Shown here: positions 12,874 through 32,167 of the stretch, piece after piece
Layout of the letters: the number at the start of each line of letters is the position of its first letter
How positions within the stretch are numbered: position 1 is the first letter of the stretch
Assembly: GCA_009192285.1 (NCBI GenBank)
Contig: CM018603.1
Coordinates: 1,837,802-1,901,801, forward strand
Reading direction: 5' to 3'
Source of the DNA: Morchella semilibera
Lineage: Eukaryota > Ascomycota > Pezizomycetes > Pezizales > Morchellaceae
DNA: 64,000 nt
Position numbers and translations under genes: made by a program
Notes under the pieces: model-generated
What the model was told of the DNA's origin: nothing
Databases searched by the model: none
The model's input: only the letters and a program-made list of their open reading frames with translations

Positions 12874-14066
12874 TCAACAGAAGAATTTTGACAAGTCTAA
12901 CTTTCCATCCAACCCCCTCGCTGCAACGCCCTTCTCTGTCACTATTGCGTCAATCAGGTCATTAGGAGTCACATCGAAGCTTGGGTTGTAGACATTGATT
13001 CCATGCGCAGCAGTGGAAATCGTGTAAAAGCGACTCTCATCCAGCTGAACCTTTCCATCAATAATCCCCACCGTCGGCCCCTGACTAACCAGCACCTCCA
13101 CTCCAGGCCTGTGTTCTATCTCAATGCCATCGCCAGATGCGGTGTTCATATCGATGCTTGTAGTTGGCGCAGCGACAACAAATTTGACCCCATGATGTTT
13201 TGCAATAATTGCAAGCTGGTAAGTCCCAATTTTGTTCGCAGTATCACCGTTTTGAGCCACGCGATCTGCACCCACAATTACGGCAGCTACGCCTTTAAGG
13301 CGCATTAATGAGGCCGCCATTGAGTCCGTGATCAAGGTGGCGGGAATATTTTCGTATACAAGTTCGTATGCGGTCAAGCGTGAACCTTGATTATATGGGC
13401 GGGTCTCGGTGCAGTATGCGTGCTCTAAGTTAGAGCTTAAGTGCAAAGAGCGGATTATTCCCAGTGCAGTCCCGTAGCCTGCAGTAGCGAGTGATCTGTG
13501 ATGACCTATGTCAGTGGACAATTAATTATCGTCTCAAAAAACACGAAATACACGAACCCAGTGTTGCAATGCGTTAGGACTTTTATCCTTCCATCTGCCG
13601 TGGTAACATTCTCCAGAATCCACCGGGCTCCAAAGTCTCCAATGTTCTTGTTGTCCTGGACATCGTCGACCAACATCTGCTCTGCTGCCTGGATATATCT
13701 TGCAAAGACTTCCTTCCCAGCAGTTACTTCGGCTGATACAACCTCCTTCAATTTCATAGCAGCATCGGCAAGATTTACCGCTGTTGGTCGAGATTTCCGG
13801 AGATAGTCCAACTTGGAATGCACAAAATTCCGCGCCTCCGCTGGTGTTGCCCCATCCTGGGGATTGCTACACAATTCTACTGCCAGAGAAAGCGCGGCTA
13901 CAATCGCAATGGCAGGGGCGCCTCGGACAACCATGTCTTTGATGGCTTGGAAGCCATCTTCAGAATCTCTGATAGGTACATATGTCGACTCGTGAGGAAG
14001 CTTGAGCTGGTCGAGAATTTTAAGGTCACCCCTTTTGTACTTGATTGCCTCGAGTGTTTTTGTCAT
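12874..14066 (-). CDS. MRI1: Methylthioribose-1-phosphate isomerase
   Basis: The enzyme converts 5-methylthioribose-1-phosphate to 5-methylthioribulose-1-phosphate in the cytosolic methionine salvage pathway. It belongs to the eIF2B alpha/beta/delta-like family. Two exons (14066-13558 and 13495-12874) are separated by a 62-bp GT-AG intron with a CTGAC branch motif, giving 376 aa, a normal length for the family. Diagnostic features are VVRGAPAI near residue 50, the catalytic THCNTG motif split by the intron (Cys167), [12 protein letters not shown] after it, and [18 protein letters not shown] with catalytic Asp247. The start is the first ATG of the conserved [13 protein letters not shown] segment. 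No defect is visible, so it is probably functional. Upstream is about 480 bp of non-coding DNA shared with the end of the next gene. Confidence 0.95.
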
Positions 14067-14550
14067 TTTAAGGGCTCCCTTGTTGGTTGGTAGTTCACAG
14101 GTAAGTTGAAGTCTTTGAAGATCTGGGTGAGTGCGGGCAGCTGAAAATATTTTCTGTCAAGATGTGCCAAGAGTTACCTTGTTGGCCAGTAACCTACGTC
14201 ATTGTACTTTCTACCGCTCAATGAAAGTTATAAATGCTATCAGCATGACACGATACTGTTACCTACTCTAGAAAATAGTAGAATAGCCCATAAAACCAGC
14301 TTGTAAGCTTCTGATGGTATAGGTAAAGAAAAATATATAGCCATGATGTCGGAAGAAAGACGAAAAAAAAAAAAAAAAGAAGCAAAAAAAGAAGACAACT
14401 CCTAGCTCCTTAAATCACCCATCACTCCATCCCATAGATACCTAAGCAGAGAGATAATAACAATAGACAAAGGAAAAAATGCCGTAAGACATAGGGATTC
14501 TTCAAGCACTAAAACACCTGCATAAGAATAGTCTTGTTACTGCCACTATT
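14067..14550. other. Intergenic region
   Basis: This is the 5' region of MRI1 and the 3' region of the next minus-strand gene. It contains a 16-bp A-run near 14,365. I see no further gene or repeat. Confidence 0.5.
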
Positions 14551-16551
14551 TCAACCCACTACTGTCCTTACTCCCGTAGACTGCTGCCTCGAGAAACGCT
14601 GGTAGTATTCCTGTCCTGTAATCCTACTTCTACGGCACAGCTCTGGCCCAATACTGATGCGCATAACTGGATCATGCATAGTACCAGAGGGGCTAGGAAA
14701 AGCAACACCGGCTGCGCCCATTTGGTCGTTGATTGATGTGAATGGGAGCTGTTCTACTAGTGGTAGGCAATTCTCAACATTAAGAAGATTGAGAGCCCCC
14801 TTCCGCTCTATCTTGGCATGTTGAGGTAGCGGAGGCACAGGCTGGGGGTCAGGCGAGGTTTCAGGCACTTTAATTTGTGAGACTGGACTTTTGATAAATG
14901 TAATCATGCTTCTCCGATGCTTTAACTCCGGTCGAGGTTTCCAGAGGGATTTAGTGCGCTCTACGATCGGAACTGTTGGCACAGGTGGTTGCTTTATGTT
15001 GTTATTATTTCGGGCAAAGGCCTTGAGGTCACCTTGGGAATACCTCCTCCGAATAGCCGCAACAACACTTCGCCTTCTCGATACTGGCTGCCCAGGCTTC
15101 ACCAGAGCTTCTTCTGAAAAGACGGGATTTTCCATTGCTGTCATCATGACTTCCGATTTACGAGTGGTAGACCTTGATTTGGAATGCTGATCGCTCCACG
15201 CTGTTTTCCAGCTATTTACGGATCCGGAGGAGCTATAGCCAGAGTCCATGCCCTCACTACCAGCCTCAGTGATACTGGTATGTCGGGCGTGTTTATCGTT
15301 ATATGTTGGATCATCCTCCGAGAAGGTATAAGCATGCACATCTTTTCCAAAAAAGGGCGCTGATGCAAACATCTTTGACATTTTGACATCAACACGTCCT
15401 GGCTTATCAAAACTCCGGTTTAAACATTGTTCAGTAAGAATCTTGTGATACTCATGTCCGATGGATATGGCACTGGAAGTAGTGCTAGAAAGACTCTCGT
15501 AGCTCTCTGTCGGCCTAAGAAGAGACTGTCGCAAACTATCCGGTGTATCATTGGCGGGGGATTCGAACTCGAATGGTGAATCTTCAACATCTTCGCTATG
15601 AACACTTGGACTCTGTGCAAAACTAAACGGACTACTTGGTATTCCATCTTCATTGTCCCTTCCGTCAGTAGGTGATGGTGGAACAAGGCGCACTTCACGT
15701 GTTGAAAGCGTTGCGTTTGTAATCACAAAAAGTTGCTTCCCTCTCGATCCTGACCTACTGATCAAGTCATCGGAAAGTGCAATATTTGTGTCAAAATATT
15801 CAGTCTTAATAGACATTTCTGGAGAGGCCCGGGAAGATGATGGTGCTGGAGAGGCTGCGCCATTTGCAATTCTTAAAGACCCCCGTTTGAAAGCCCCAAG
15901 AACGCTGTAACCCGAGGGTGTCGTACACCGGCCAGCATCATAGTCTGCTGAGTGGGGTGCAAGTGTGTAAGGATCTGGAGAGGATGTATCGGGGCCGCAT
16001 TGGTCCTGTAAATATGGTTGTACTGGTCTCCTAGTTGCCGTCGCAGGGGGTGCAGCAAGAAGTTGGGATTTACGACGGACAGTGCCCATTGAAGGTATTT
16101 CAGAATTACGGTTTGGAGGTGGTGCACAAGCTGCACTACTGTTGGTTGAGCTGCGTGTGACCATACTTCCTCCTCTGCGCATTCCAGTGCTTATGGGCAT
16201 GCTGCTGACCACCCCTGGAAGGGCTGAATCCACAGCAGAGTCGGAAGTCTCAAGGTCATGATCCCCCAGAAATGACCACATCCCGGATTTTCGAACATCG
16301 TTTGGGGGTAATGTGTTGGAATACTCGACCGAAATGATACCTGCGTGTGACTCTTCGGTGGGTTGATGTTGTACAGCCAAGGGCCTTGATCCAGAGAGAC
16401 TTAGGCGAGATAGCGAAGGAGGTAGGCAGGAAGCTTCACGACTTGAGGTGTTGGAGTTGGTACGAGGTTTGGTGAGTTTATTCCGGGGTGGGTGGGTTGT
16501 TGAAAAGTGGATTCCTTCGACTTCGGATGGAATAGACTGTGCAGCTCCCAT
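14551..16551 (-). CDS. Serine-rich, probably N-myristoylated protein of unknown function (666 aa)
   Basis: A single uninterrupted frame of 666 codons starts MGAAQSIPSEVEG. Gly2 with Ser6 fits the N-myristoyltransferase consensus, so the protein may sit on the cytosolic face of a membrane. The rest is largely low-complexity: many Ser, Thr, Pro and Arg residues and short basic RRxS-type stretches (for example near VSRRRSVVAAIRRRYSQGD and KHRRSM), which look like kinase targets. There are no transmembrane segments and no catalytic domain that I recognise. It is long, lacks internal repeats, and its coding quality argues for a real host gene. It could be a fungus-specific signalling or scaffold protein. 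The function is not assigned. Confidence 0.8.
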   Translation of the reverse strand: MGAAQSIPSEVEGIHFSTTHPPRNKLTKPRTNSNTSSREASCLPPSLSRLSLSGSRPLAVQHQPTEESHAGIISVEYSNTLPPNDVRKSGMWSFLGDHDLETSDSAVDSALPGVVSSMPISTGMRRGGSMVTRSSTNSSAACAPPPNRNSEIPSMGTVRRKSQLLAAPPATATRRPVQPYLQDQCGPDTSSPDPYTLAPHSADYDAGRCTTPSGYSVLGAFKRGSLRIANGAASPAPSSSRASPEMSIKTEYFDTNIALSDDLISRSGSRGKQLFVITNATLSTREVRLVPPSPTDGRDNEDGIPSSPFSFAQSPSVHSEDVEDSPFEFESPANDTPDSLRQSLLRPTESYESLSSTTSSAISIGHEYHKILTEQCLNRSFDKPGRVDVKMSKMFASAPFFGKDVHAYTFSEDDPTYNDKHARHTSITEAGSEGMDSGYSSSGSVNSWKTAWSDQHSKSRSTTRKSEVMMTAMENPVFSEEALVKPGQPVSRRRSVVAAIRRRYSQGDLKAFARNNNNIKQPPVPTVPIVERTKSLWKPRPELKHRRSMITFIKSPVSQIKVPETSPDPQPVPPLPQHAKIERKGALNLLNVENCLPLVEQLPFTSINDQMGAAGVAFPSPSGTMHDPVMRISIGPELCRRSRITGQEYYQRFSRQQSTGVRTVVG

Positions 16552-18255
16552 TTTGGCGGGAAGCTAATGCTATATGGGGTAACAGGTGCTTGGTAGTATG
16601 TAGGCAGCGTGAATGTATGTAAAACGCGCCCGCCGGGAGAGCGTTTGTAAATTATTGAGGCATAAAGCAGGAGTAATTCCAGAATGTTTAGATATAGATG
16701 CAATAGCAGACCAGGTAGAGTCAGAAGCCTGAGGAGAGGGATGGGGAGATGTTGGGAAAGAGGGCAGGACGAAATAATGACGGAAAGAAGAACTGACGGG
16801 ATTGAGGGGATTCGAGGCAGGAGATGAGGGAGACCACACAACTATCCACATAGGGTAGGCGGGTATGCTATTCAAACAATACATGTACATACCTCAACTC
16901 AGGTAGGGAACACCATAACTGCTCTCAAACCTGTATAGAGTGTAAACACTCACCTACATGTAGTAGTACAACAGGCTGATGGGTGCCAGACAAGAGATAA
17001 AAAAGCATGGCTTGTGGAGAGAGCAGGGACCAGGCGGTTAGATTAGATAAATGAGGGGGTGAACCAGCCCCTGTAGTTCCGCCAGAAATCTAAACAATTC
17101 GTGTGCGGAGTTTCCCCAGTAACTACAAGTTCGAACCCCCTATCAGAAGGTGGAAAAACTCCTCAGAACGACGGATAAGCAAGTGATTGCAGGGTTGGGG
17201 TTTCAGGTAGTGGAAATAGCAGGGATCGGGACATCCGTGCTTAATGCACCTCCCAGTAAACGGTGCAGCTCCCTCATGAGAATGCCACCGATATTGCAAA
17301 TTCGGTTTGATGGACCTGATCGCCTCAAAATTATGTTGGCCACTTTGGCCCCACCTTAAGATACAAAAATTACATAAGAGTAGTTACTGCTCACTGCTTA
17401 CATGATCATTGCATCGATCTACTCAGGCGATTATGGCATGTAAGAATTGAAGGAGGTTGGGACACCCGAAGGTGGCTGGTAATCCTACCCCTCCTCAGCT
17501 GTTATTTTAAAGATTTTGTACTGTAGTTGTAGTACACGTACCTAGGTATAGTGGGGTCGAAGTGCACTGGTGTATAGCATGTAACTTGGGTGTTCGATTT
17601 CGTGCCAAAATTAGCATTCGACGGCGATCGCGTCGTCACAGACATGCTTCCCCACTGCTAGTACTTGATGTGCATGTGTACACAAAGGTGCTTGACGTCA
17701 ACTACATATGTAGAAGTACATACTAGTAAGTGAATGAAATGATTTTAGCAAGGCTGTCATCTTAGACCGGGTACCGTGTCAAACCTAGAAGAGTGCCAAC
17801 CCCACACTACATGTACCAGGGTGTTGAGGGTAAGTGATCAGAATCTGATAAGTGAATGTTGCGGTGGATTCTCTGACTAATTCACTTTTCGCTACACCCT
17901 AGTACTAAAGCTATCTCCACCAGATTTGAAATAAATGAATTCCACTTCCAAAACACAAGCATTTAATTAGTTTCCAGATTCATTATCCTCTATTATGGTC
18001 ATTGTGGGGTCTTTATTTTTCTGAGTCTTTGGTGCCGTTTCCATATGACATACCTTTAGGGCTGATATAGTACTGGATTAAAAATATTATGTTTCAGTGC
18101 ATATGACACCAACTGCGTACCCATTTAAGCCTTCTGTAGCATATGTCCAGGTCCACACTTTGATACCTTTTACCTTATAATAACACTGCCCTTATCTAGA
18201 GGTGAAAAACAAGAATTAAAGAAGGTGGACCAAAAGGAAATATACTTATATAGAA
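16552..18255. other. Non-coding spacer upstream of the large transposon
   Basis: About 1.7 kb without a credible gene. It includes the promoter side of the myristoylated-protein gene, a stretch near 17,040-17,360 with no recognised content, and a short MITE at 17,816-17,902. Confidence 0.5.
17816..17902. mobile_element. Short MITE, GGGTGT-type ends, TA duplication
   Basis: It starts CCAGGGTGTTGAGGGTAAG and ends TTCGCTACACCCTAG. The ends are imperfect inverted repeats and TA flanks both sides. The left end is shared with the larger element at 47,506-47,907. Confidence 0.6.
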
Positions 18256-18261
18256 CCTATC

Positions 18262-18682
18262 TATGGAGCGGTAAACGTGTCAAAAGTAATTTTGCCAACG
18301 GTGGTAAATTATTTTACCACCGGTGGTATAACACGCTGAAATTCAGAGTGCTCGTGCGCATTAGTCCCGAAATTAAGCACTTAGTGAATTATCTTGGCAT
18401 TTATTCGCCACCGGTGGTAAATTAAACGACCGCCGGTGGTGAATTGACGGCCGCCGGTGGTGAATTGATGGCCACCGGTGGTGAATTGATGGCCACCGGT
18501 GGAATAACACGTTGAATTCAGTGTCAGCGCGAATATGTCCTCAAGTTCAGTAATTTTATCCTATGTATTTTCCCACCGGTGGAATGATATGTTGAATTCG
18601 GTGTCAGCGCGAATATGTCCTTGAATCAAGCTATCCTATGAAATAATATTTCTAAGTTTGGAACATGGCGTTCAAATTGGGA
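18262..18682 (+). repeat. Left terminal inverted repeat of the large transposon
   Basis: It matches the right end in reverse from the outermost base to about 18,682. It includes five perfect copies of the palindrome CCACCGGTGG plus variants (CCGCCGGTGG, CCAACGGTGG). Several copies lie in ~21-bp tandem units containing TGGTGAATTGATGGCCACC. A second module, TTGAATTCRGTGTCAGCGCG, occurs twice. Confidence 0.9.
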
Positions 18683-18693
18683 CGTATGAACTG

Positions 18694-18764
18694 GGCTCGG
18701 GATTCTGAGCTCGGGATTCTGAGCTCGGGATTCTGAGCTCGGGATTCTGAGCTCGTGATTAATT
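18694..18764 (+). repeat. 14-bp tandem repeat GAGCTCGGGATTCT, left side
   Basis: About five tandem units of GAGCTCGGGATTCT lie directly inside the left terminal repeat. A third cluster of about five looser units is at 19,187-19,250, and the mirror cluster is inside the right end at 31,410-31,498. Confidence 0.85.
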
Positions 18765-19376
18765 CTGATGGCGGGATTGGAGATTTGGGATATAAGCTGT
18801 AATATGGGACATACATGCTTATGTAGGCAGGCAGGTAAGTAGGTAGGAAAGGTTGCTAGTAGAGAGTAAATGTACATATTAAATAGAGAAACAATCAAGA
18901 GTTTTATTTGTGAAGTTCACCTATGCCAGAAGAAGCGTGAATACTGGCCTACCTGCGCGTCCAGACTCTTCACTGAATAAAATAACCCTTATATAGATAT
19001 TACCACATATACTAAGGCTGAATATATAACTCTCACCGAAACCATAGCATCCTAAAGGACATTATAGAAAATATCAAAATTAATATCAAATAATAATTGA
19101 TAATCACATGAGCTTTGCATAATCCTCATACGGATATGGGTACGGGCGGTGACGTATATAAATAAGTACATCTTAAAGTATACTGAGCTCGGGATTCTGA
19201 GCACAGGGTTCTGAGCACGGGATTCTGAGCCTGTGATTCTGAGCTCGGGATAAGCTATGTAGTATGAGGACGGGCGGTAAAGGACATAACTACGAAACAC
19301 ATGTAAGTATATCAAAACACTGGCCAGATTCCTCGAAAATAACACGCTTGATAACGTACCCAATCGCTGCCCTCAA
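18765..19376. other. Subterminal non-coding region
   Basis: AT-rich sequence between the left repeats and the 3' end of the HECT-like gene. It contains the second GAGCTCGGGATTCT-type cluster (19,187-19,250). I see no gene in it. Confidence 0.5.
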
Positions 19377-22091
19377 TCAATCGATCGAAAATTGAGGTCC
19401 GAACACAGAGGCTGCCCGATGCATATCCATAAGCTCTCTAAAGCCAATTGTCGTCCCGTATTCGTTCAAAAGCTTAACAGACAGCGCCAGTTCCAGATGG
19501 CAGGTAGAGAACTTCAGTAACCCTTCTCCTGCCCCACCCTCAACCTTATCTGTGATGCGAATGGTAATCGTTCTATAAGATACGAATGATGTGCCCAGTA
19601 TCTCCTCAACCAGCCAGTCCAAGGCAGCCGAGGGCCACTGAATCCATTCTTCGAAGAGCGTTTGGACACGTTGGCACTTAAGTATAAAATCAACTTCATC
19701 AACTCCATCCTTGATATCATGTTTGTACCGCAAGACTTCGTTCATGGATTCGGAAGTCGGGATCCCGGATTGCAGAAGCCAGGAATCGATATCTTCAAGC
19801 CGCAGCGTCGGGTCCTCTTGCATCTTTTGGAATAGATTCCGCTCATTCAGTCCCCGAATAAAAGCATCGAGGGCCTGTGACCGGTTTTTCCACTGGGTTT
19901 CCCAATATAGACTTGAACGGACCGCGTTTATGTCGTCAGAAGATTGCAGAGCTTGTTCAATAGATTCCATTCTCCATCCAACACTTTCAAAAACTTCTTG
20001 TAGAATCCGGGGTACGCGAGCTCGAGCACCAGCCTGAGTGCTAGGCCCGCCGTTCACTATATATCCATCAAGGACTCCCATGGCTTCTCCAATCGAGCCA
20101 TCAACACGAGAAGAATCCGGGGTATAGCGCTTTCCCTGGTAACGCCAGTAAGCTACAATGAACACAACGGGATCTAAACCACGTGGCCACGAGAAGTCTT
20201 GGTGGCAAAAGACATAGCTTGCAAGGAGCTTTCCGAACATCTCGTAATTGCGGAGGTTGGGAGATGGGGACCCGAAACCGGGAATGTTGATCCCCCTAAA
20301 CATAACTGGGTCTTGGTCTTCTCGAAAGGTACGACCAAAGGGACTGCCATCCACAAAGCTTTCTGACTCCAAATATCGCATCATAACCCGATGAAGAAAC
20401 GAACGAAAGACTCCACCACAATCTGCACCCTGTCGGTAATCTCTATGGTCCACGGTGACTCGAGGGTGGGGATTCGCAACCCTCAGATGCCAAGGAGTGA
20501 GCTCTATAAAATCAAACAACTGACGTATCCAGTCGGGGCTATCACCACCATCGTGGCTAGTACCAAACCCCCACTCAAAACGATCTTCCTCTCGAATGTA
20601 AACATCAGGGCTCGGCCCATATGTTTCTCGCATCTGTGATATTACGCGCTGAAAATGACTAGGTTGGGATGTGGGAGTTGCTAATTGGGATCTCCTGTTT
20701 ACAGTTTCGGGGGCGGCAACTCTCGCGGTTGGGACGTCAAGCGTAATGAGAAGCGTATCATTGGAGTCATTCACAGTAGGAGATTCCAAAGAGGGTTGCG
20801 GGTTCCGGATTGTTGGGCTTAGGGGGTGAATTCTTGGACGCCCAACGCTTCTTCGGCCTCGAGTTGCGCCTCGCCCGTAGGAGCCCCGGGAGCCACGGGA
20901 GCCACGACTACTACTTCCCATTTGCTGCACTTGGCAGCCGGGAGCGTACTCTCCATCGTCTGAGAGGGTTGGGGATCGTGTGCGTCGTCGTCTATTTGAA
21001 GGACGAGAGCGCTCGTTACTCTCCGCTTCTACCTCATCATCCTCTTCATTACTGGTTTGGGAATCCTGAAACACCCCGCGTTCAAACTCGTCATCCATCT
21101 CCCAGCCTTCCCATATCAATTCAGAATCCCCATGTCTTGAATAACTGGGGTCATAATATGGACTCATCTGGTAAAGATCTTTCAAGGTGAGGAGGTCCGA
21201 TATAGGAGTGATATAGAAGTTTCGTTTATGATTAGCTCTGCAGCACCATTTGAGAGTTGCTAAATCCTGCACCACATCCCTCCCGAGAGCTATCAACTTT
21301 AATTCGCCCTCCCGCCCGCCTGGATGCTTCCACAATTTCCATTCCTCAGCCCAGTGTCCCAGCCCCCTTGATGTCAAAGCTGCAGTAATAACTCTCCTAA
21401 CTCCGTTGGCAGTAGAGTCGCTATCCTCGTCAAAATTCACCTCTATATTGCATAACCCTCGGTTATCAAGACGTTTACTCTCAGTGCTCATGCCGTTAGG
21501 AATCATGGGATCAAAGGGTTGTCTGAGATATGTAAAGGTTGCCTTCCAGTATCGTCTTCCAGAGCTCGCAACTGGGGAGTTGCGAGCTCGTCCGCATACC
21601 CTACGGTATGTTCCTCGAGTCCTCATCTCATTAATTCGACGGGCACGAAATTGGTCTGGCAAATCTCTCCCCCCAGTCCCATATACAGTCGTACCAGCTG
21701 ATATTGGAGATTGGGGTTCAGCGATGCCAGTGGCCGAACGAGTACGGGATTGAACAGGGGATATTGTGGATTCGCTAACCGCGGCCAGCAAAGCGGGGCC
21801 TGGAGGGGCTGCGGTTGCTGGCTGAATATACCTATCGCGGGCCAGCTCAAAACGTTCGAAGGGCGGAGCGGCCCTAAATGGTGAGGAATTGCTCGCTGGA
21901 GAGCTATCCGCAGGTAGACCGCTGAGCATGGTTGCCGGCAAGAACGCGTGAAAGTTATGCCCATGGCCGCACGAGCATATCCCAGCCGGATCCTGAGCTG
22001 TTTGATAATATGATTGACAGCCATTGCAGCTGCTGTTTCGACATTCCGCTCTAGGCCCAAACACCGGCTCGGTGACCGTCGGGGCGGCCAT
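19377..22091 (-). CDS. HECT-like E3 ubiquitin ligase carried by the transposon (904 aa)
   Basis: A single open frame of 904 codons. Residues 15-48 form a Cys/His cluster (Cys17, Cys22, Cys25, Cys39, Cys41, His43, His45, His48) likely to bind zinc. A long disordered basic/Ser region follows, with an acidic patch (~348-357), an RG-rich stretch (~396-413) and an AT-hook-like GRPRIHP (417-423). From about residue 530 to the end the sequence resembles a divergent HECT domain: QGADCGGVFRSFL matches the N-lobe GGV...E region, a YEMFGKLLAS helix follows, and the C-lobe has TITIRI...LLKFSTCHLELALS, whose Cys864 in STC fits the thioester cysteine. The C-terminus is 40 residues later, close to the HECT norm. 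It may mark a host or transposon protein with ubiquitin. HECT identity is by motif reading and could be a HECT-derived fold without activity. Confidence 0.75.
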   Translation of the reverse strand: MAAPTVTEPVFGPRAECRNSSCNGCQSYYQTAQDPAGICSCGHGHNFHAFLPATMLSGLPADSSPASNSSPFRAAPPFERFELARDRYIQPATAAPPGPALLAAVSESTISPVQSRTRSATGIAEPQSPISAGTTVYGTGGRDLPDQFRARRINEMRTRGTYRRVCGRARNSPVASSGRRYWKATFTYLRQPFDPMIPNGMSTESKRLDNRGLCNIEVNFDEDSDSTANGVRRVITAALTSRGLGHWAEEWKLWKHPGGREGELKLIALGRDVVQDLATLKWCCRANHKRNFYITPISDLLTLKDLYQMSPYYDPSYSRHGDSELIWEGWEMDDEFERGVFQDSQTSNEEDDEVEAESNERSRPSNRRRRTRSPTLSDDGEYAPGCQVQQMGSSSRGSRGSRGSYGRGATRGRRSVGRPRIHPLSPTIRNPQPSLESPTVNDSNDTLLITLDVPTARVAAPETVNRRSQLATPTSQPSHFQRVISQMRETYGPSPDVYIREEDRFEWGFGTSHDGGDSPDWIRQLFDFIELTPWHLRVANPHPRVTVDHRDYRQGADCGGVFRSFLHRVMMRYLESESFVDGSPFGRTFREDQDPVMFRGINIPGFGSPSPNLRNYEMFGKLLASYVFCHQDFSWPRGLDPVVFIVAYWRYQGKRYTPDSSRVDGSIGEAMGVLDGYIVNGGPSTQAGARARVPRILQEVFESVGWRMESIEQALQSSDDINAVRSSLYWETQWKNRSQALDAFIRGLNERNLFQKMQEDPTLRLEDIDSWLLQSGIPTSESMNEVLRYKHDIKDGVDEVDFILKCQRVQTLFEEWIQWPSAALDWLVEEILGTSFVSYRTITIRITDKVEGGAGEGLLKFSTCHLELALSVKLLNEYGTTIGFRELMDMHRAASVFGPQFSID

Positions 22092-22095
22092 TTAT

Positions 22096-22388
22096 GAGCC
22101 TAAATACATAGAAGAATTTGTTAGTTGAAGGATTCCTGGTGGCTAGCATTCTTCAGAATACGCAGAGGAGCATGCGTACCTATGATAGCGGTAGGGGGGA
22201 CGAATGATAATTGGTGACTGGCACTTGAGATTTGGCGATTGGGGAGCCTAAATACAGAGAATTTGTTAAGTGAAGGATTCCTGGTGGCTAGCACTCTTCG
22301 GAATACGCAAAGGAGCATGCGTACCTATGAAACGATGGAGAGGAAATGATAATTGGTAACTGACACTTGAGATCTGGTGATTGGGGGG
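22096..22388. repeat. Two ~148-bp direct repeats upstream of the HECT-like gene
   Basis: Units start at 22096 and 22244 with GAGCCTAAATACA. They share GAAGGATTCCTGGTGGCTAGC and the CAAAGGAGCATGCGTACCTATG region. They lie immediately upstream of the start codon, so they may be a duplicated promoter. Confidence 0.8.
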
Positions 22389-23210
22389 TTGGTAGACCGG
22401 TAGCATGAGCGAGTGATATGAGGTGAGAAAATAAGGGCTCTTATCTAGAATTGAAAGCATATTATATGGGGCGTGTGTTAGCATATTCCCTCTACATTTT
22501 TGATGCTAGTGTACCTTCTCGACTAGTAAAAAACACTATAGATAACTAACCTTGTATCTTCCTGACGTCTGTAGACTCATATCACCCGCCTGTTCTCGCC
22601 TCTGAATCCTGCATTAGCTTAGTTTGGGGCAGGGGGCTAAAAATCCGGGTGCTAAGACCCCTTTTCGATGATATGGTACCTAGGACCCCCGATTCTGGTG
22701 GCGTGAAAGCTCGATTTAAGCTTTTGCGCGTACCTATTACTAAGATTATGTTATAGACGTACCTATTACTAAGATTAGGGTTATAGACGCACCTACTACT
22801 AAGATTAGGTTATAGACGGTATATATCCTTGATTCTGGTGACTGGGGACCGTCATATACGGATATCAACTTAAAATTTTGCGCGCACCTATTACTAAGAT
22901 TAGGTTATAGACGGTATATACCCCTAATTCTGGTGGCTGGGAACTATCACATACGGATCTAAGCACTTATGCACACTTATCAATGGGATTAGATTATACC
23001 AAGACATACTGAAGCATATCGAATAACTATAGGTAATAATAGAAACGGGTAACGAGAATCCGTATACTATCAACGTATTTTTTTAGTGACAAAAAAAATT
23101 GGATAATAAAAGGAAAGAGTCACTTAAAATACATTATATGGATACAGAGTTGAGAACTGGCACTTGATGCTCAAGCCACAAACAATAAATGCCTAAGATA
23201 GCATCCCCAA
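22389..23210. repeat. Non-coding region with dispersed TATTACTAAGATTAGG repeats
   Basis: Four copies of a unit containing CCTATTACTAAGATTA and GGTTATAGACG lie between 22,730 and 22,925. Some are followed by a TTCTGGTG-CTGGG segment. I found no open frame of note. Confidence 0.65.
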
Positions 23211-24290
23211 TCACCCAGAGGCTGATTCATCGTCGTTATCGGCCGTTCCGTCAGAGTCGGCCCCCGCAAAAGCATACTCGGTATCATCAACCATCTCGTG
23301 ATCCATTTCCGGGCTTTCGCCGAATGTGGCCATTATTTTTTGGACCGCTTCGGACTCCAGATCATCTAATCTAATAGCCTCGTCGCCACGACTCAGTCGA
23401 ATCTCGCGGATTCGCGCTTCCCATTCCGCAACACGCCGCCTAAGGGTTGCAGGCGCGGTGGGTTCCAAAAGCTCGGCCTTCTGTTCCCGCCGAATCATTG
23501 CACGGCTAAGTTCCTCGATTGTCTGTTTTGACTTCTCTGTGTCTTCCAGTTCTTGCCACAGAGCCCATTCCTTCGAAAGCCTCTGGAACCAGGCAGTTCC
23601 CAGCTCGCGATTTTGGTCTGGATGAAGCAGTAGACATAGAGAGTTGTATTCTCGACGGGATGGAATTCCCATGCCCCAGGCTCGGTCAGGATTGACTTGG
23701 TTCTGTGGGTTGGGGCCTGGTAATAGGTCAGGAGGGCGGCGGAGAAAATGAAAGACTAATGTTGCAAAGTTAAGTACGGAATCGGGATTAATATCGAAGG
23801 ATTGATATTGTTTGAGCCTATAGATAGCATCAGCATAGTTTCAAAGCCCTCAATTCCCAAGTCCCAATACACAAATGACAGATGGGGGTATAGCTACCTT
23901 ATCATCCCCTCCTTTTCCATTTCGTAGACTACCATATGCCTCGCAACCAAGAAATCACGTTTCTCGCGGCTATGAGTTTTGTTTTTAGCCCGATTACGGG
24001 CGTAGCTTTCTCTATTTTGCCGGGCGCGAACCTGTGAATCATTAGCATCTATTGTTGAGATCAACGATAAAATGCTATACCGCAAGTCTATCCTGTTCCC
24101 TTCTGTATGCAGGGCGACGCTTCACACCTTCACGCAATATCTTCATCTCTTCTACCGCTTCGGGTGTATGGTGGTCATCCTCAGGAGGGGGTCCTCGACG
24201 GTATACCCATACATCATAATGTCGACCCAAAGCACTCATATTTCTGAATTCTTTAGAACACCATTTGCATTGTGGTTTGGTTGTTGCCAT
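23211..24290 (-). CDS. Three-exon zinc-finger-like / J-domain-like cargo protein (316 aa)
   Basis: Exons 24290-24081, 24031-23898 and 23817-23211 join in frame (951 bases). Both introns (49 and 80 bp) have GT-AG ends with GCTAATG and GCTGATG branch motifs. The N-terminus has CKWCSKEFRNMSALGRH (Cys8, Cys11, His24), the first three ligands of a C2H2 finger; a fourth is not at the usual spacing. The middle is very basic (residues ~70-105). Residues ~168-205 contain YNSLCLLLHPDQN followed by WFQRLSKEWALWQEL, which reads like helices II-III of a J domain with its HPD loop (180-182), but helix I is not clear. The C-terminus is acidic (DDTEYAF..., DNDDES). It may be a DNA-binding or chaperone-recruiting accessory factor; the function is not assigned. 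Confidence 0.7.
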
Positions 24291-24633
24291 TTGCGAAGCA
24301 GTAGATTTGGGTTTGCAAACAAAGAGGGGACTGAATAGGTGCGGGAGAGTTGAGGAGGGTGTTGTTCAGCGGCCTGGGGCAACTTTTATGCAGCAGATTA
24401 CATAATCAAACCTAACCACGGTAACGTGATGAATGTAACGCCCAGAACGTAGTTCCTGGCATGCGTGATAGTTTGTAGCATTATTTCCATTCCCTGCGTT
24501 AATTGATATCACGATTACTGAAAAGGGTTAGGTTTCTAATTTAGCCTAACCGCCAGCCAGATTGTATAGAATATATACATTCATCTCCGAACTAGGAGCC
24601 ACCACCACGACCTTATTCTAGTTTATTCCCAAA
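24291..24633. other. Short intergenic region inside the transposon
   Basis: Promoter side of the three-exon finger/J-like gene and 3' side of the next gene. No further feature is seen. Confidence 0.45.
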
Positions 24634-25195
24634 TCATGCAGCGCCTATTATGTAGAGGAATATTTGCTGTCTAAGTACCTTGCTGCTCCTTGGTAATGAT
24701 TGGCAACCATGATATTGGGCGGCGTTGTAGAATATAAGGAGATCGCGCAGATTATCGCTGGTCAGGGCCGTAAACTCATCCCAAGTAAAAGGGAACCTGG
24801 GTGAGAATTCCATGTATTCATTGACTATTGGTTCCAAGAAGGCAGCTTGGTTGAGTGGAGCTAACCTGTTCTTCAATCGTGCCATACAGTTATGTTCTCT
24901 ATCACAGATATAAGTCATTGCCTCCAGATCACGGACCCGGAGCTATGGGGCCTACATACACTGCATAGATACGTTGTAACGTGCTCGGCGGGCCGGGCAT
25001 AGGATCCCCGGCAACAGGCCTGGTTGCCCTAGCGGCGACCCGAAAGGTCGTCGCTAGGGTCCTTCCGCTGAACAATAAACTCCGACCCGCAATGAGGGCT
25101 GGCGGCGGAACGCCGGGAGGCATCACGACGGGAGCCCAGACCCCGCGATATCTACCAATTGGAGCAATAAATGGGGTGCCAGCATTAGCCGCCAT
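24634..25195 (-). CDS. Small cargo protein, paralogue B (166 aa)
   Basis: Exon 1 is 25195-24960 and exon 2 is 24898-24634. A 61-bp intron with a perfect GTATGT donor separates them. The start chosen is MAANAGTPF; an in-frame ATG at 25348 would add 51 residues. The N-terminal half is Pro/Ala/Gly-rich and likely disordered; it ends QRIYAV at the splice junction. The C-terminal half is a compact helical region with conserved aromatic residues (FSPRFPFTWDEFTAL, LLIFYNAAQYHG). Exon 1 is 236 bases, exactly as in the plus-strand gene at 28,349, the intron phase is the same, and exon 2 is 265 against 268 bases. The two genes are therefore diverged paralogues. No known domain is recognised. Confidence 0.7.
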
Positions 25196-25320
25196 GCTAG
25201 AGTTGAGGGTAGAACCTAACTGAGTGCTCCGAGATGGGAGTTGCGAAATAGGGACTCTGGGCGGGGGAGAAGATTTATAGTGGTTCAGAGTGAACCCATT
25301 CTTTGTTTGATATATAGTTT

Positions 25321-25780
25321 CAAGGTTTCCTTTGCTGCCGCGATACATATTGTTTCGCTAGGATCACTCGAGAATCCTGGACAAAGGACGGTGCGAGGTG
25401 GGAGATCCTAACTAACCCAGCTAACCAAGATACGCTGGCCCACACTATTGAGTTAGCACATTCTCTATGGCCACGATACATATTGTTTCAATGGATAAAG
25501 GACAAACGAAAGCAGGACCCGCTACCTAAAATTGAGAACTGGGAACTGGGAGATGCGAATATTCTTTCACCGGGGATCACTCGGGAATCCTGATCACAAC
25601 ACAAACGAAAGCAGGACTCCCTACCTAAAATTGGGAACTGGGAGATGGGAGATGGGAGGGGCGGGGTGGAAAATACGTTGGCTCACACTATTGAGTTTAG
25701 CCATTCTCTATGGTGCCACGATACATATTGCTTCACCCGAGATCACTCGGGAATCTCGGACATGCACACACAGCTAGCAA
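25321..25780. repeat. Direct repeats with GATACATATTGTTTC and GGGAACTGGGAGATG
   Basis: Three spaced copies of a module with GATACATATTG(T/C)TTC, GATCACTCG(A/G)GAAT and CTATTGAGTTAGC lie upstream of paralogue B. Between them are GGGAACTGGGAGATG strings. They are probably regulatory or simply duplicated promoter DNA. Confidence 0.65.
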
Positions 25781-26105
25781 GCTACGTGAAAATCCAAGGG
25801 TGCTAGGGCCTGCATAATTACAAAACGACTTATGCGTCTGTGCCACTTACCGTAGCTTAAATCAAACACATATGCGTACCAATCCCTGAATCAAGTATAA
25901 ATTATATCATACCAACGCAGCTGCAAACCATAATGTGCCATGCCTGCAGAATGGTGTGTATATTGCTTCTTCTAACCCTCTAACTAGGGCTCATGTGATT
26001 ACGTACGCCCGCTAGTACTAACCCTAACTACACCCGTAGTATGGGGTTCTGTTCCCTCTCCCTGGCCTGCTTCATCCTACAATACACAAACCATCGATCT
26101 AGAAG
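25781..26105. other. Intergenic region between divergent cargo genes
   Basis: About 325 bp between the repeats upstream of paralogue B and the start of the three-exon plus-strand gene. It includes a pyrimidine-rich TTCCCTCTCCCTGG stretch about 50 bp before that start codon. Confidence 0.45.
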
Positions 26106-26923
26106 ATGTCAGACCTCACAACCTATCGTCGACAGGTTCTGTCAAAATGGTTTTTAAGAGGCATGTTATCAGGGAACGCAATGGCAATGATTAATCGCTG
26201 TGTTTCCGAACTGCAGGAGAGAGGAATCGTCGAGTCCGTGGGGGGGGTTAAGGTTCGTTTACTAGAGCTCCAGATTCCGAATTCAGAAACTGCAAGGCTA
26301 ACTTGTCCTTTAGGGTTGGATCAAGGATGAGAAGGCTAGACTTAAGGCATCGGGAAATAAAAGTGTTCTCGAGAACTTCGAACTAGCTTTACAATGGTCT
26401 AGAAGGTAATCAAACTGGGAGCTATCTATTATCGACCCGACCTGACATTCAATTAAGAAATCAAAATCCTTCGCCGTGGGAGAATAGCCAGTGGTTTAGG
26501 CAGCCCAGGCGATCTTCTACGGGAACCCAGAGGTCGATACCACGGGGCACGGAACCTGGTGGGCAGTCAATCCAGCCTTTACAAGCACCGCCAGGCCCAG
26601 GGATGCCCGCCCAGCCCTGCCAAAATTTGCCCGCTTTTCCATCGCCGTCTACGCTAAAGGATGAGAATAGAGTCACTGCTCTGATCCCCATGATTCCAGC
26701 TCCCACTCCGCGCCCCGTAGATCGTGTGGAGCTTAGTAAATATCAGCCGGTGAGAAAGCGGAAGAGAAAAAGCCAGCTTCAACTATTGATTGAGGCAGCA
26801 GAGACATCTCATCATTCTGTAGCAGCTCATTCCGGAGCTCTGATTCTTTTGTCTGCAGAGGCACCCGCAGATTGGAGCCTAAGGCTTCGGGTACGAAAGC
26901 CTATATCGTATAAGATACGGTAG
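26106..26923 (+). CDS. Three-exon basic cargo protein of unknown function (232 aa)
   Basis: Exons 26106-26246, 26314-26405 and 26458-26923 give 699 bases in one frame ending TAG. The introns (67 and 52 bp) have GT-AG ends and GGCTAAC and CCTGACA branch motifs. The first exon encodes a helical segment (residues 1-47, YRRQVLSKWFLRGML). The centre is Pro/Gly/Gln-rich. A strong basic cluster RKRKRK at 177-182 is a likely nuclear localisation signal. The C-terminal part has a hydrophobic SGALILL stretch too short for a membrane span. No family is recognised. Splice sites are inferred; the uninterrupted joint frame supports them. Confidence 0.6.
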
Positions 26924-27059
26924 CTGGGCTTGGGGGCGTATATTTTGGTTTATTCTTACTCTAGGTTATAAATTATATTTACATATTCTTCTGCTTTTGG
27001 CCAAATCGTATCCATAATTCACTTTCGCAAGTTAAGGAAAAGGTTGTATGTAGAAAGCA

Positions 27060-28150
27060 GATTGCCAACTGCCAACACAAAGCCCGAATTCCGCTCCTAG
27101 TACTGCTTTGAAGCCTAATTTCAGCATGTTATACAACCGTAGATATTCGCTAGCATCTACGGTATGTGCCGGTGCACCTCCCAACCCGAATGTCAGTTCT
27201 CACCTTTCCAGGTTAGGGCGCATTGGCCCCACCCACACCCGAGCCCAGACCTCGAGCTCTTGGCGGCTATCACACCAAAAACGGTCGCCAAGAACTAAAT
27301 ATTTGGAGTCAGAAGTTGTTGTTGCAAACACGATCCCAAAACGGTCGCCAAGGACTAAATATTTGGAGTCAGAAGTTGTTGCAAACAGGATCCCTGTAGC
27401 CAAGAGCCCAAACTCCGCGCCTACTACAGCTGTGAGGGCTGATTTCGGGATGCTTATCTGCCGGTTTGCACCTCCTGCCAACACGATCCCAGGTTGCCCA
27501 AACTCCGCGCCTACTACAGCTGTGAGGCCTGATTTCAGGATGCTTACCTGCCGGTTTGCACCTCCAAGTTGCCAACACGATCCCTGTAGCCAAAAGCCCA
27601 AACTCCGCGCCTACTACAGCTGTGAGGGCTGATTTCGGGATGATTATCTGCCGGTTTGCACCTCTGCCAACCTCGATCACAATACCGTCGGCTTTGGAGC
27701 CGATATCTAGTGGTGTGGTTGTTACAACCTTGTTTGTGGGATGTGGTTGTTAGTGCAAGGGCCGTTGAAGCTTAATTTTGTGTCCGTGCCCATCCGCTTT
27801 GGCATCAGATCTGCATTTCCAACTGCCAACTACCAACGGCCAACCCTGTCTCAGACGCAAAGCCCAAATTCCACGCCTACTGCAGCATTAAAGCTGAATT
27901 CCAGTGCCAAATTCTGCCAATGCTGGGTTAGGGTTCTAAATCCTATCGACCAACCAAAGTGCCTATATTCCGACGGTTTGGTTAGTAATGTAGTATAGGT
28001 AGGGTAACCGCAAGATGTTTCGCACACTACGGTACACATACACTAGATGATGTAATCCAGTACTGCTAACCACCCTGTAGGGACAAACCCCGGATTCCAC
28101 GCCTAGTGCGTCATTGATACTGAATTTCAGCGTCTCGTGCCTATGAAGCC
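27060..28150. repeat. Minisatellite region (60-bp and 90-100-bp units)
   Basis: Two 60-bp units begin at 27,280 and 27,340 with ACGGTCGCCAAG. Three 90-100-bp units begin at 27,406, 27,496 and 27,596 with GCCCAAACTCCGCGCCTAC and include GCTTATCTGCCGGTTTGCACC. More diverged units lie at ~27,083, ~27,851 and ~28,082. Frames open across the units are by-products of the repetition and lack convincing coding signals. Confidence 0.75.
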
Positions 28151-28225
28151 ATTTGTATGATCCTTCATGAACCAATGACGTCTACAAAAGCAAAACTACA
28201 ATGTTGGTTAGTTTGGTAGTGTTTG

Positions 28226-28249
28226 TATATATATATATATATATATATA
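28226..28249. repeat. (TA)n microsatellite
   Basis: A run of 12 TA units about 100 bp upstream of the plus-strand small paralogue. Confidence 0.9.
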
Positions 28250-28348
28250 GGGCCTTCTTTCTCTTCGAAATCAGCAACTTTTGAAAACCGGCAACCGCTC
28301 TCCCTCCTCCCAATCCAGAATCACCAATTCGCAACCAGATCGTTATAA

Positions 28349-28903
28349 ATGTCATCTGCATTTACCGCCGCCGCCGCCCCAGCTGCTGCCGCCCCAGCTG
28401 CCGCCGCCCCTGCTGCCGCCGCCCCTGCTGCCGCCGCCCCTGCTGCCGCCGCCCCTGCTGCCGCCGCCGGGATTGATAGAGCTCGGCCCTCTCTCCAGCC
28501 TGTGAGAACCACGCCCTTCCAGTACCGTAAGGGCTTCCCCGACAAGCCTAAGACAAGTATCGTAAGCGCAATAGCTGCCAACCTGTATGCTGTCCCACCA
28601 CTACCGAAACCCTGAGTGCTAACCTACCTATACAGCGCCTACAATCATTCCGTTGCGGCAATCAATAATGCCCGCCGCGCGCAGCGCGCTTTCCATACCA
28701 ACCCGCGCTACGGGTTCTTAAAGCCGGTGGGAGCTGTTTTGGGGACGCCACACCGCCTGGCTCCAAGGTGGCATGGAGAGATGGACCGCCTAACCAGGGA
28801 GCAGTGGGGTGAATTGGGGAATTTTTATGGCTTCGTTTGGGATGATTCGGTTTCGTTGGAGCAATGCAGGTATGCCTACGGGAAGGCATACGGGTGGGCA
28901 TAG
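28349..28903 (+). CDS. Small cargo protein, paralogue A (167 aa), Ala/Pro-repeat N-terminus
   Basis: Exon 1 is 28349-28584 and exon 2 is 28636-28903, with a 51-bp GT-AG intron and a GCTAACC branch motif, giving 504 bases in frame. The N-terminus after MSSAFT is a tandem AAAPA repeat encoded by ~15-bp GCC/GCT units; it is followed by GIDRARPSLQPVRTTPFQYRKGF. Exon 2 encodes a helix (YNHSVAAINNARRAQRAF), a basic loop, and an aromatic C-terminus (LGNFYGFVWDD, CRYAYGKAYGWA). Exon 1 length and intron phase equal those of the minus-strand gene at 24,634-25,195. The function is unknown. Duplication within the element suggests a dosage-sensitive or structural role. Confidence 0.7.
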
Positions 28904-29151
28904 GTTTTCTTTCTTTTTTTTGTTTTTAGGATTTAGTATTTTGAATGATACGTTATGAAGCGGGTCAAATTCTCGCTCCGGGCCGTAATCAGCACAATTC
29001 GTGCCCAAATTCTCGCTCCGTGCCGTAATCAGCCTCGTGCCCAGATTCTCGTTCCTAGATAGGTATCTCGTAGTTAGCAGCTCGGGGCTCGGAAAGACGC
29101 ATTGGTTGATTGGTCAATTGATTGATTAATATTACACTATTTTCCCCCACT
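28904..29151. other. Spacer between convergent genes
   Basis: 3' sides of paralogue A (+) and the transposase (-). It holds two copies of AAATTCTCGCTCCG(G/T)GCCGTAATCAGC, about 40 bp apart. Confidence 0.5.
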
Positions 29152-30750
29152 CTAACTTGCCAATTCCTCGAGTATACGGCTCCTGAGGTTGGAGTACGCC
29201 TTTACACCCGCTTCATCCCCAGGCTCATGAGCCCCGTACTGTATCGCCCAGGTTTCTAGGGATTGTGTACTTAGTCCAAGCTCTGGTGGGTCTTCAAGAT
29301 GTACCTGCTCGTCTCCCGCATCACCCGGGGCAGGGAGCCTTTCGGATGCGTAGTTCACATCATCATCATCTGGAAACATGGGTGCGGACCCCTGGCTTGC
29401 CCAACCATCGTTCCACATCCGGATTGGTGTCTTGGAGCCGGCAGTCCTGACAGGGTGGTAATCCCAGTAAGAGCAGAATGAGTCCAGAGCCTGTTGTATT
29501 CGCCATTGAAACACCTTGGTAAGGCAATATCCATCAACTAACCAATCCTCGTGGCCTCGATGAGATAGGATTCCACAAGCCTCCATTTGTTGAAAGAGGG
29601 CTCGGAAACGATGGCCCACCTTGATACCGTGATCGTACCAGAGACGCTCGATACGTGTATTTTGGGTCGATTTGCCTGTTAAGGCAGGGCGCGCACTCTC
29701 GGGGTGTAGACGCATCATTTCTTCGACGACGAGAACATTCTCCCCGCCTTTATCGCAACGTGTCTTTTTGGGAATGCCAAACTTAAGAATAGCCTCCCTG
29801 AAGCATTCTGTTGGTAGTGAATTCGTTAGGTTTTGAGGCACCAGGAGGCGGGGTCAAGAGTTGGGAGTTGGGAGATGGAGTTAAACCACCATGTACATAC
29901 CTAATACAGTTTGCGCGTAATTGTTAGTCCTAACCTGGAGCCACATTATCCTTCGGGAGAAACCATCTATCGCGCCGTGAGTGATAAAGCCCCACCGGAT
30001 CAGCTTATGGTGCCCATCAAAGTGCCACACACAATTCGGGCCAGGGACAAAGTAGGGGATACGGATTGGCAGTTGGCGAACGCGGGTTTGGATTCTCCTT
30101 GTGGGGTCAATCCGTAAAAGACTTTCACGAATGCGATTTTCGGTAACGCTTATCCCTTGCGATCTGATACTGGATACCACAGCCCGATATCCCGAGGAAG
30201 GATGCTCTTCAAGAACAGAAAACGCAAGATCATCAATTTCATCGTCCGTGAAGGTTTGTCGGTGGAGTTGCTTGGCCTCCGCTCGGCGTCTGTACAGAGT
30301 TGACCGGGAGAAGTTGGACTCCTTAACAACCTCATTCAGACGATATCCCTGATTGATATTTTCCAGGACATCAGGAAGGTTAATGATGATACGCGGCCTG
30401 CCGGCAGAACCTACAATCGGGGTGCTCTGGACGGCCAACACAGGATTTGAGGCTTGCGAGATCGCGACTCTCGCAGAGGAAAGTCGCGCGTGTAGAGATG
30501 CAGCGTGGTTTCTCCATGACGCGAGTGATTCGGGGCTGACGGAATCAGCAAGGCTTGCCAGCTGCGAGATGATGTCCTCTAATCGGGACTTCTGAACATC
30601 GATTTGTGATTCCGTGTAGAACGTAGCTTCTGCAAGGAATATCTCGACCTGCAGAAAGAGAGACTCAACCAAGCTCCAAAACGAGGCCCACCTAGAAGTG
30701 GCAGACTGTTGACAAAACGAGCGAACGATGTCGGTAGGCATGGGGTTCAC
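29152..30750 (-). CDS. D,D34E transposase of the IS3/retroviral-integrase fold (501 aa)
   Basis: Exon 1 (30750-29901) and exon 2 (29807-29152) join in frame to 1,506 bases across a 93-bp intron with a GTATGT donor, CTAAC branch and CAG acceptor. Residues ~30-100 are helical. Residues ~117-165 contain GRPRI and a resolvase-like helix-turn-helix (YRLNEVVKESNFSRSTLYRRR) for end binding. The catalytic core has Asp245 in WHFDGHHKL, Asp302 in KTRCDKGGEN and Glu337 in NTRIERLWYD, a D-x56-D-x34-E arrangement as in IS3 and retroviral integrases. The IDGFSRR motif follows the first Asp. The C-terminus is acidic then helical. It should cut and join the TATGG-type ends. There are no stops or frameshifts, so it may be active. 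It resembles WHxDGxHK proteins of IS3EU elements rather than LTR integrases, which have a zinc finger and chromodomain. Confidence 0.88.
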
Positions 30751-31409
30751 GTACAGCAGTCGGAGTGCTTTGAATTCGGGATTGGTGGTTGCGAGTTGGG
30801 AGGTGGTGAGGTTTGTGGGGTTAGGTTTGATCTCGTAGTCGTCGGAGATGTGTTAACCAAAAGAAAAAGGTTTTAGATTTAGAAAGAAAAAAATACACGG
30901 AGCATAAAAAACGTCGAAAAAAACGATATGCCTTAGTTCCGAAACCTCAGGATCGCGTTGAAACAATTTTTTGATGTTGGAAACCCCCCCTTTATGATAA
31001 TAAAGGGGGGGTTTCCAACATCAAAAAATTGTTTCAACGCGATCCTGAGGTTTCGGAACTAAGGCATATCGTTTTTTTCGACGTTTTTTATGCCCATATA
31101 GAATCCGGCATTTAATACAAGTTTAATATGTGAAACGAAACAATATAGAGTCTAAGTGATTTTCCGTGTAACGGCGCATCGGGATATTTAAAAACGAACA
31201 AACACCTGCTAAAAATGATTTTTCTAAGACACATTATACTAGTAAAATCAAAACATAGGATAATGAGGACCTTATTAGAGACCTTAAAAAATAATATTAG
31301 AAATCAAAAACGACTACATAAGCAATCCGCGGACGATGAACTCAACGAGTGTAGTAAGAGCTCAATTTAAGGATTTATACATGTATGTATACCGATCCCA
31401 GCGTGTATC
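30751..31409. other. Promoter side of the transposase gene and subterminal DNA
   Basis: It includes a TTGGGAGGTGG/GCGAGTTGGGAG motif just upstream of the transposase start, the 192-bp hairpin (30,902-31,093) and AT-rich DNA to the right-side tandem repeats. Confidence 0.5.
30902..31093. repeat. Near-perfect 192-bp palindrome (foldback hairpin)
   Basis: Two arms of about 94 bp are reverse complements of each other around a 4-base centre (GATA at 30,996-30,999). The arms start GCATAAAAAACGTCG and reach CCCCCCCTTTAT at the centre. It may be a recent foldback MITE inside the transposon, with TA as a possible target duplication, or a functional hairpin of the element. Confidence 0.9.
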
Positions 31410-31498
31410 TCGAGCTCAGAATCCCGAGCTCAGAATTCCCAGCTCAGAATTCCCAGCTCAGAATTCCCAGCTCAGAATTCCCAGCTCAGAATTCCCAA
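31410..31498 (-). repeat. 14-bp tandem repeat cluster, right side
   Basis: About six units of AGAATTCCCAGCTC, the reverse complement of the left GAGCTCGGGATTCT units, with most units carrying GGGAATTCT. Confidence 0.85.
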
Positions 31499-32012
31499 TT
31501 TGAACGCCATGTTCGAAACTTAGAAATATTATCTCATAGGATAGCTTGATTCAAGGATATATTCGCGCTGACACCGAATTCAAGGATAAATTCGCACTGA
31601 TGGTTGATTCAAGGACATATTCGCGTTGACACCGAATTCAACATATCATTCCACCGGTGGGAAAATACATAGGATAAAAGTACTGAACTTGAGGACATAT
31701 TCGCGCTGACACTGAATTCAACGTGTTATTCCACCGGTGGCCATCAATTCACCACCGGTGGCCATCAATTCACCACCGGTGGCCATCAATTCACCACCGG
31801 TGGCCGTCAATTCACCACCGGCGGCCGTCAATTCACCACCGGCGGTCGTTAATTTACCACCGGTGGCGAATAAATGCCAAGATAATTCACTAAGTGCTTA
31901 ATTTCGGGACTAATGCGCACGAGCACTCTGAATTTCAGCGTGTTATACCACCGGTGGTAAAATAATTTACCACCGTTGGCAAAATTACTTTTGACACATT
32001 TACCGCACCATA
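31495..32012 (-). repeat. Right terminal inverted repeat of the large transposon
   Basis: The reverse complement of the left repeat, longer because of extra tandem units. It has seven perfect CCACCGGTGG palindromes, two CCACCGGCGG variants and an extra GAATTCAAGGATA-type module. The outer end is ...CCGCACCATA, followed by CCTATC. Confidence 0.9.
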
Positions 32013-32167
32013 CCTATCTACCTTATCCATTAAACTGTCAGGTCAAACCAGAATCGTATACTAAAACAATTTGTAGTTAGCTATGTCACATCCATTTAAG
32101 TAGAGCTGAGCTGAGCTCTTCTATTATCTGCTATAGAGTGACTAGATGTAAACAGACGATAGAGAAA

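Follow-up and report, generated by a model that had tools for sequence, protein, structure and literature searches.

A complete DNA transposon of the IS3EU type, 13.75 kb in length, occupies positions 18262-32012 of a 64,000-nucleotide stretch of the Morchella semilibera genome (assembly GCA_009192285.1, contig CM018603.1, forward-strand positions 1,837,802 to 1,901,801), referred to here as the window. An original prediction, made from the letters of the window alone, had placed a complete IS3EU-like transposon at these positions, and this was borne out by the termini, the target duplication, an open transposase frame and sister copies elsewhere in the genome. The element is probably autonomous and recently mobile, with a cargo of accessory genes. 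Its features, in window coordinates, are as follows.

18256..18261: target duplication CCTATC, left copy, read in the flanking sequence
18262..18759, plus strand: left inverted end, TATGG.., with CCACCGGTGG array, delimited by end-versus-end local alignment
19377..22091, minus strand: single-exon cargo gene of 904 amino acids (aa); relative P0121, dN/dS (ratio of nonsynonymous to synonymous change) of 0.35-0.49 against genome relics
23211..23817, minus strand: C2H2/J-domain-like cargo gene, exon 3, with HPD motif; coding score
23898..24031, minus strand: C2H2/J-domain-like cargo gene, exon 2; dN/dS of 0.23 over 100 codons
24081..24290, minus strand: C2H2/J-domain-like cargo gene (316 aa), exon 1; coding score
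24634..25195, minus strand: small cargo gene; coding score for the 3' exon, uncertain 5' part and junction
26106..26252, plus strand: 234-aa cargo gene, exon 1; coding score
26314..26405, plus strand: 234-aa cargo gene, exon 2; coding score
26458..26923, plus strand: 234-aa cargo gene, exon 3, with basic KRKRK stretch; coding score
29152..29807, minus strand: transposase exon 2, with second catalytic D and E; PF24764 match
29901..30741, minus strand: transposase exon 1 from the first Met, with first catalytic D; frame open from 30852
30902..31093: perfect palindrome upstream of the transposase (arms of 94 nt, spacer of 4 nt), at which alignments with other copies are interrupted or shortened
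31407..32012, minus strand: right inverted end, ..CCATA, with CCACCGGTGG array, delimited by end-versus-end local alignment
32013..32018: target duplication CCTATC, right copy, a perfect match to the left copy

Boundaries and inverted ends

The outermost termini of the element were TATGGAGCGG.. on the left and ..CCGCACCATA on the right, of the type TATGG..CCATA, and the predicted perfect 6-bp duplication CCTATC was found at both flanks. Inverted ends of 420-520 bp had been proposed; this held for the left end (498 bp) but was too short for the right (606 bp), the arm of which contains insertions of 42 and 58 bp relative to the left arm. In the best local alignment, the two ends were identical at 482 of 497 ungapped columns. 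The sequence CCACCGGTGG occurred five times in the left 600 bp, seven times in the right 700 bp, not at all between these segments, and once in the remainder of the window, making it a putative transposase binding site.

Transposase and superfamily placement

The two transposase exons are separated by an intron of 93 bp (29808-29900), and the joined frame is open over 535 aa, or 498 aa from the Met at 30741. The catalytic residues are spaced D-x56-D-x34-E, in agreement with the uninterrupted two-exon transposase of the original prediction. Residues 267-455 matched Pfam PF24764 with 192.8 bits, weak helix-turn-helix matches lay ahead of the core, and the rve model scored 28.9 bits, under its cut-off of 32.6. 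The Pfam scan, run at E up to 1, reported no H2C2 domain for the transposase, and no reverse transcriptase frame was found inside the element. The element thus combines TA..TA termini, a 6-bp duplication and an IS3-type DDE core that lacks an HHCC domain. Because of the termini and duplications, we infer that PF24764 stands for IS3EU; with the PF24764 score, these ends and the 6-bp duplication support the IS3EU-like assignment made earlier.

A protein search with the transposase yielded 147 matches at E <= 0.001 among 8000 scored candidates, and the named relatives among the matches listed came from fishes, Rhizophagus, coral, molluscs, sea urchin, sponge and tardigrade. A tree of 59 PF24764-type rows was built without named IS3EU references; its 57 relatives, drawn from the best 120 of the 147 protein matches, were P0001-P0045 and twelve others, most of them named. 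The window protein grouped with the assembly proteins P0001 and P0002 with support of 99/94.

A second IS3EU-like family was found in the same genome (L068:2405-8811, which is C9:31405-37811), with a near-duplicate on contig C10. Its 32-bp arms, TACGG..CCGTA, are 97% complementary and are flanked by the 7-bp repeat GGACGTA. The PF24764 transposase frame of this family carries N at the expected first catalytic D, and its row in the transposase tree had a branch of 9.56 and a position without meaning. A 455-aa frame of the same family matched Tet_JBP at E=2.6e-5 with 24 bits, below the cut-off of 34.9.

Large sister copies

The genome (56.76 Mb, 23 contigs) gave 70 Fungal_trans matches, in keeping with a fungal host. 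It was searched for further copies, and large parts of the element recurred at C16:659643, C1:2356388, C3:2123140-2145709, C2:2768283, C2:2821435 and C11:576675 (contig:position). The main aligned stretches of these copies were ~96-99.6% identical to the window copy, while indel-bearing terminal stretches fell to 90.5%; the C16 copy matched at 99.5% identity over 6.5 kb. The transposase carried a nonsense change in the C2:2821435 copy and indels in the C1 and C3 copies, and the aligned transposase exons of the C2:2768283 copy had no nonsense change or indel. Several partial copies lacked the 904-aa gene or carried it in broken form. Three more pairs of ends shared duplications, namely AAACCAG (7 bp), CCCGGG and GAGGAT. 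The original prediction had named a lack of other copies as a finding that would count against it; further copies with other duplications were present in the same genome. Recent mobility is supported by the large copies, by the three additional end pairs with matching duplications and by a family of small derivatives.

Small non-autonomous derivatives

With up to 3 mismatches allowed, the terminal motif had 159 forward and 157 reverse matches in the genome, compared with 0 and 0 for a reversed control. Paired ends were present in 32 of the 33 small-derivative places fetched, at lengths of 198-740 bp; L064 lacked paired ends and was excluded before the count of 32. Recognisable duplications of 5-8 bp flanked 18 of the 32 derivatives. 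These were perfect in thirteen cases (6 bp, n=5; 7 bp, n=6; 8 bp, n=1; 5 bp, n=1) and contained one mismatch in five. Among mispaired control flanks, 11 of 990 passed the same duplication rule, and none was perfect at 6 bp or more.

The small derivatives resembled the large element in the terminal 85 bp only. At least one relative within the set, aligned over >70% of the length, was found for 27 of the 32 (best identities 80-99%), and the other five had none in the set. L061 and L062 were identical in sequence and are probably a single site on two haplotype contigs. The contig pairs C9/C10, C12/C13 and C21/C22 showed matches at near-equal coordinates, as if two haplotypes were partly present. 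A derivative with two perfect ends at C21:2248393-2248763 had no zero-mismatch C22 partner among the matches listed and is a lead for a polymorphic insertion.

Structure and coding support of the cargo genes

The cargo frames were scored with a codon model trained on the 904-aa gene and the transposase. Positive scores in the predicted frame, with negative scores in each of the five alternatives, were obtained for the 234-aa gene, for the C2H2/J-like gene and for the 3' exon of the 24.6-kb gene. The exon junction of the gene at 24634-25195 was ambiguous, with many possible junctions. A further candidate at 28321-28623 on the minus strand was rejected, as its three frames all scored negative. 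Five extra genes had been predicted, and no list of them was given; 28321-28623 may be the fifth. On this count, four genes were supported, that at 24.6-25.2 kb only in part, and the fifth was not.

Identity of the cargo proteins

One outside relative of the 904-aa protein was found, P0121, with 42% identity over 681 columns when residues 480-904 served as the query; with the whole protein as the query, for which the search words were taken from the first 500 residues, no relative was found. The P0121 match stops near residue 843, and the last 60 residues are therefore without a relative. The cargo had been proposed to include a ubiquitin ligase, an identity that found no support in Pfam, NCBIfam or PDB, searched with the sequence and a two-row profile, or in profile comparison. 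A genome scan with the HECT profile PF00632 gave 16 matches, of which 0 lay in the element. Comparison of the 904-aa protein with one host HECT domain by hhalign returned nothing, and shuffle-tested alignment with host HECT gave a best z of 1.6, with 36 of 400 shuffles equally good. The order of motifs in the protein may weakly resemble that of HECT domains, but none of the sequence tests made supported the ubiquitin-ligase label.

The 316-aa protein contains a C2H2-like finger and an HPD motif, and both domain matches were below the Pfam cut-offs; for PF00226 (DnaJ) the score was 13.6 bits (E=0.074) against a cut-off of 27.8. Apart from element copies and a few diverged fragments, no sequences of the 904-aa and C2H2/J-like proteins were found in the genome, and no host single-copy source gene was found there for either.

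Selection and mutation pattern

Comparison of the 904-aa gene with fragments at three places in the genome gave dN/dS values of 0.35-0.49 (four alignments, 78-97 codons). The C2H2/J-like gene has diverged relatives at 68-80% identity on C5, where the sequence contains stops, and at 39-48% on C11. Against C5, over 100 codons, dS was 0.73 and dN 0.17, a ratio of 0.23; a gap in the C5 alignment and two of the C5 stops coincided with a predicted intron of this gene. Among the recent copies, pooled dN/dS was 0.57 for the transposase, 1.04 for the 904-aa gene, 1.65 for the C2H2/J-like gene and 0.79 for the 234-aa gene, and a value of 0.16 for the 3' exon of the 24.6-kb gene came from 8 changes only. 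The 904-aa and C2H2/J-like genes were thus under purifying selection over long times, with little constraint among recent copies. These data suggest that the two genes have been selected while travelling with the element. Decay of single copies while two cargo genes stay constrained is as expected under selection on the element lineage.

In the alignments used, 222 differences from the window copy were C-to-T and 70 were T-to-C, and most of the compared copies carried C-to-T changes relative to the window copy. CpG sites accounted for 95 of the 222 C-to-T changes and for 21.6% of C positions. Because C-to-T changes were enriched at CpG, methylation of the repeats with loss of methylated CpG is plausible. 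Repeat-induced point mutation (RIP) with a CpA bias is known from Neurospora. Only 50 of 292 C/T differences lay before A, which is no excess, and CpA-biased RIP was therefore not seen. The CpA bias of RIP is stated in PMC12730594.

Surroundings of the element

Outside the element, the window contains remains of Gypsy-type retrotransposons, e.g., at 1528-7718 and 52880-59345. An IF-2B-family gene at 12877-14156 had methylthioribose-1-phosphate isomerases as its best PDB matches, a GHMP kinase gene lies at 45499-46830, and a 670-aa open frame on the minus strand at 14554-16563 had no Pfam or NCBIfam match.

Interpretation

Several observations weigh against an autonomous, recently mobile transposon with accessory cargo genes. 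The left and right ends that share AAACCAG, CCCGGG and GAGGAT each lie on different contigs. No allelic empty site was found in this assembly by a joined-flank search that covered the best 40 of 263 candidates; the hits were the two flanks of the element itself and a ~90-bp dispersed repeat. No duplication was seen in 14 of the 32 small derivatives. The relics behind the dN/dS values are short and some contain stops, the direction of change was reversed in the C16 copy (9 C-to-T versus 14 T-to-C), and the 5' part of the gene at 24634-25195 was slightly negative in the codon model.

The cargo genes might instead be passive passengers, host or foreign DNA that was trapped between the ends and has no role for the element, which we regard as unlikely. 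Values of dN/dS near or above 1 among the recent copies, and the loss or breakage of the 904-aa gene in several partial copies, would fit such passengers. However, decay of recent broken copies is expected whatever the role of the cargo, the constraint measured against diverged relics (dN/dS of 0.23-0.49) speaks against mere passengers, and a host single-copy source was found in the genome for neither the 904-aa nor the C2H2/J-like protein.

A less likely possibility is that the duplications with ends on different contigs record real chromosome rearrangements by recombination between copies, as for Styx, an element linked to rearrangements (PMC10853768). The distribution of the three end pairs agrees with this explanation, but the assembly itself offers another. 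A single N stands at C3:2137334, exactly at the break of a copy, and another at C2:2816131, 81 bp off the break of a copy. The C3 sequence ahead of its N matched C2:2750001-2750935 at 99.5% over 938 columns, and the C1 copy was indel-rich toward its end, with 47 gaps and 2 mismatches in 3733 columns. These single Ns, the C3/C2 overlap and the indel-rich C1 end suggest misjoined scaffolds, and the end swaps between contigs look like assembly misjoins rather than translocations. No N characters were found in the fetched C11, C1 and C16 stretches, so a misjoin is not demonstrated at every break; neither translocations nor their absence are therefore claimed. The target duplications at the C3:2137334 and C2:2816131 breaks could serve for scaffold correction.

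It is extremely improbable that the transposase is the integrase of a long terminal repeat (LTR) retrotransposon and the inverted ends a folded satellite, since the weak rve match (28.9 bits, below the cut-off of 32.6) and the commonness of Gypsy remains in the window are set against the 192.8-bit PF24764 match, an element in which no H2C2 domain was reported and no reverse transcriptase frame was found, and the recurrence of precise ends with duplications.

For the autonomous IS3EU transposon that we favor, the transposase would bind the terminal sequence and the adjoining CCACCGGTGG arrays, excise the element and insert it by staggered strand transfer, which would generate the mostly 6- or 7-bp duplications. 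The small derivatives would be moved by the same transposase. The extra genes would travel as accessory genes, and their products may help expression or transposition under host silencing. As a speculation to which we attach little confidence, the 904-aa protein could be an enzyme, either ligase-like but strongly diverged or otherwise of a new type, that acts with the C2H2/J-like protein to disarm a host silencing factor, giving IS3EU a counter-silencing mechanism at the protein level. If true, this mechanism would stand beside the DNA-level TET/JBP route of the other IS3EU-like family found in this genome.

A DNA transposon is often pictured as a transposase with its ends. In this element, selection seems to have preserved at least two additional proteins even as individual copies degenerate, and the element offers defined genes to test for an anti-silencing role. 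With a second IS3EU-like family that has a TET/JBP-like frame, and many small derivatives with recognisable duplications, also present, a comparison of strains would show what still moves.

Comparison with known IS3EU systems

Published systems are compared here by their descriptions in the cited papers. IS3EU/GingerRoot elements end in TA..TA, usually make 6-bp duplications, lack an HHCC domain and have their first catalytic D at a distance of 100-300 residues from the N-terminus (PMC10045372). The window element resembles them in its TA..TA ends, its duplication, the lack of an HHCC domain and the position of the first D. Unlike them, it has long ends and several extra genes, and perfect 7-bp duplications (six) are as common among its small derivatives as 6-bp ones (five). 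IS3EU ranks first in abundance among the DNA transposons of Colletotrichum lupini (PMC11645255).

Styx of Zymoseptoria, which its authors link to IS3EU, measures 7.9 kb, is bounded by inverted repeats of 36 bp, makes 6-bp duplications and contains four open reading frames (ORFs), and its cargo has GATA, CCHC and DUF3577 domains; it is associated with chromosome rearrangements (PMC10853768). Both elements belong to ascomycetes and share 6-bp duplications, a transposase accompanied by further genes (three more ORFs in Styx), solo ends and recent activity. Compared by description, the window element differs in its length of 13.75 kb and its ends of ~500-600 bp, and no GATA, CCHC or DUF3577 domain was reported by Pfam in the scanned cargo frames.

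Rust IS3EU families carry TET/JBP and alpha-kinase genes, with TAYGG..CCRTA ends and 6-bp duplications, and Tuber indicum has a TET/JBP-carrying IS3EU family (PMC12730594). The window element is, like these, a fungal IS3EU element with captured genes; neither a TET/JBP nor an alpha-kinase domain was reported in its scanned frames. Fungal IS3EU elements with cargo are therefore already known from Styx and the TET/JBP families, also in ascomycetes, and the earlier suggestion that such an element had not been described was too strong. A publication describing this particular cargo gene set was not found among titles and abstracts of mainly open-access literature. The known cargo-carrying relatives have other passengers. 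Together with Styx and the TET/JBP families, the window element presents IS3EU as a superfamily of recurring accessory genes.

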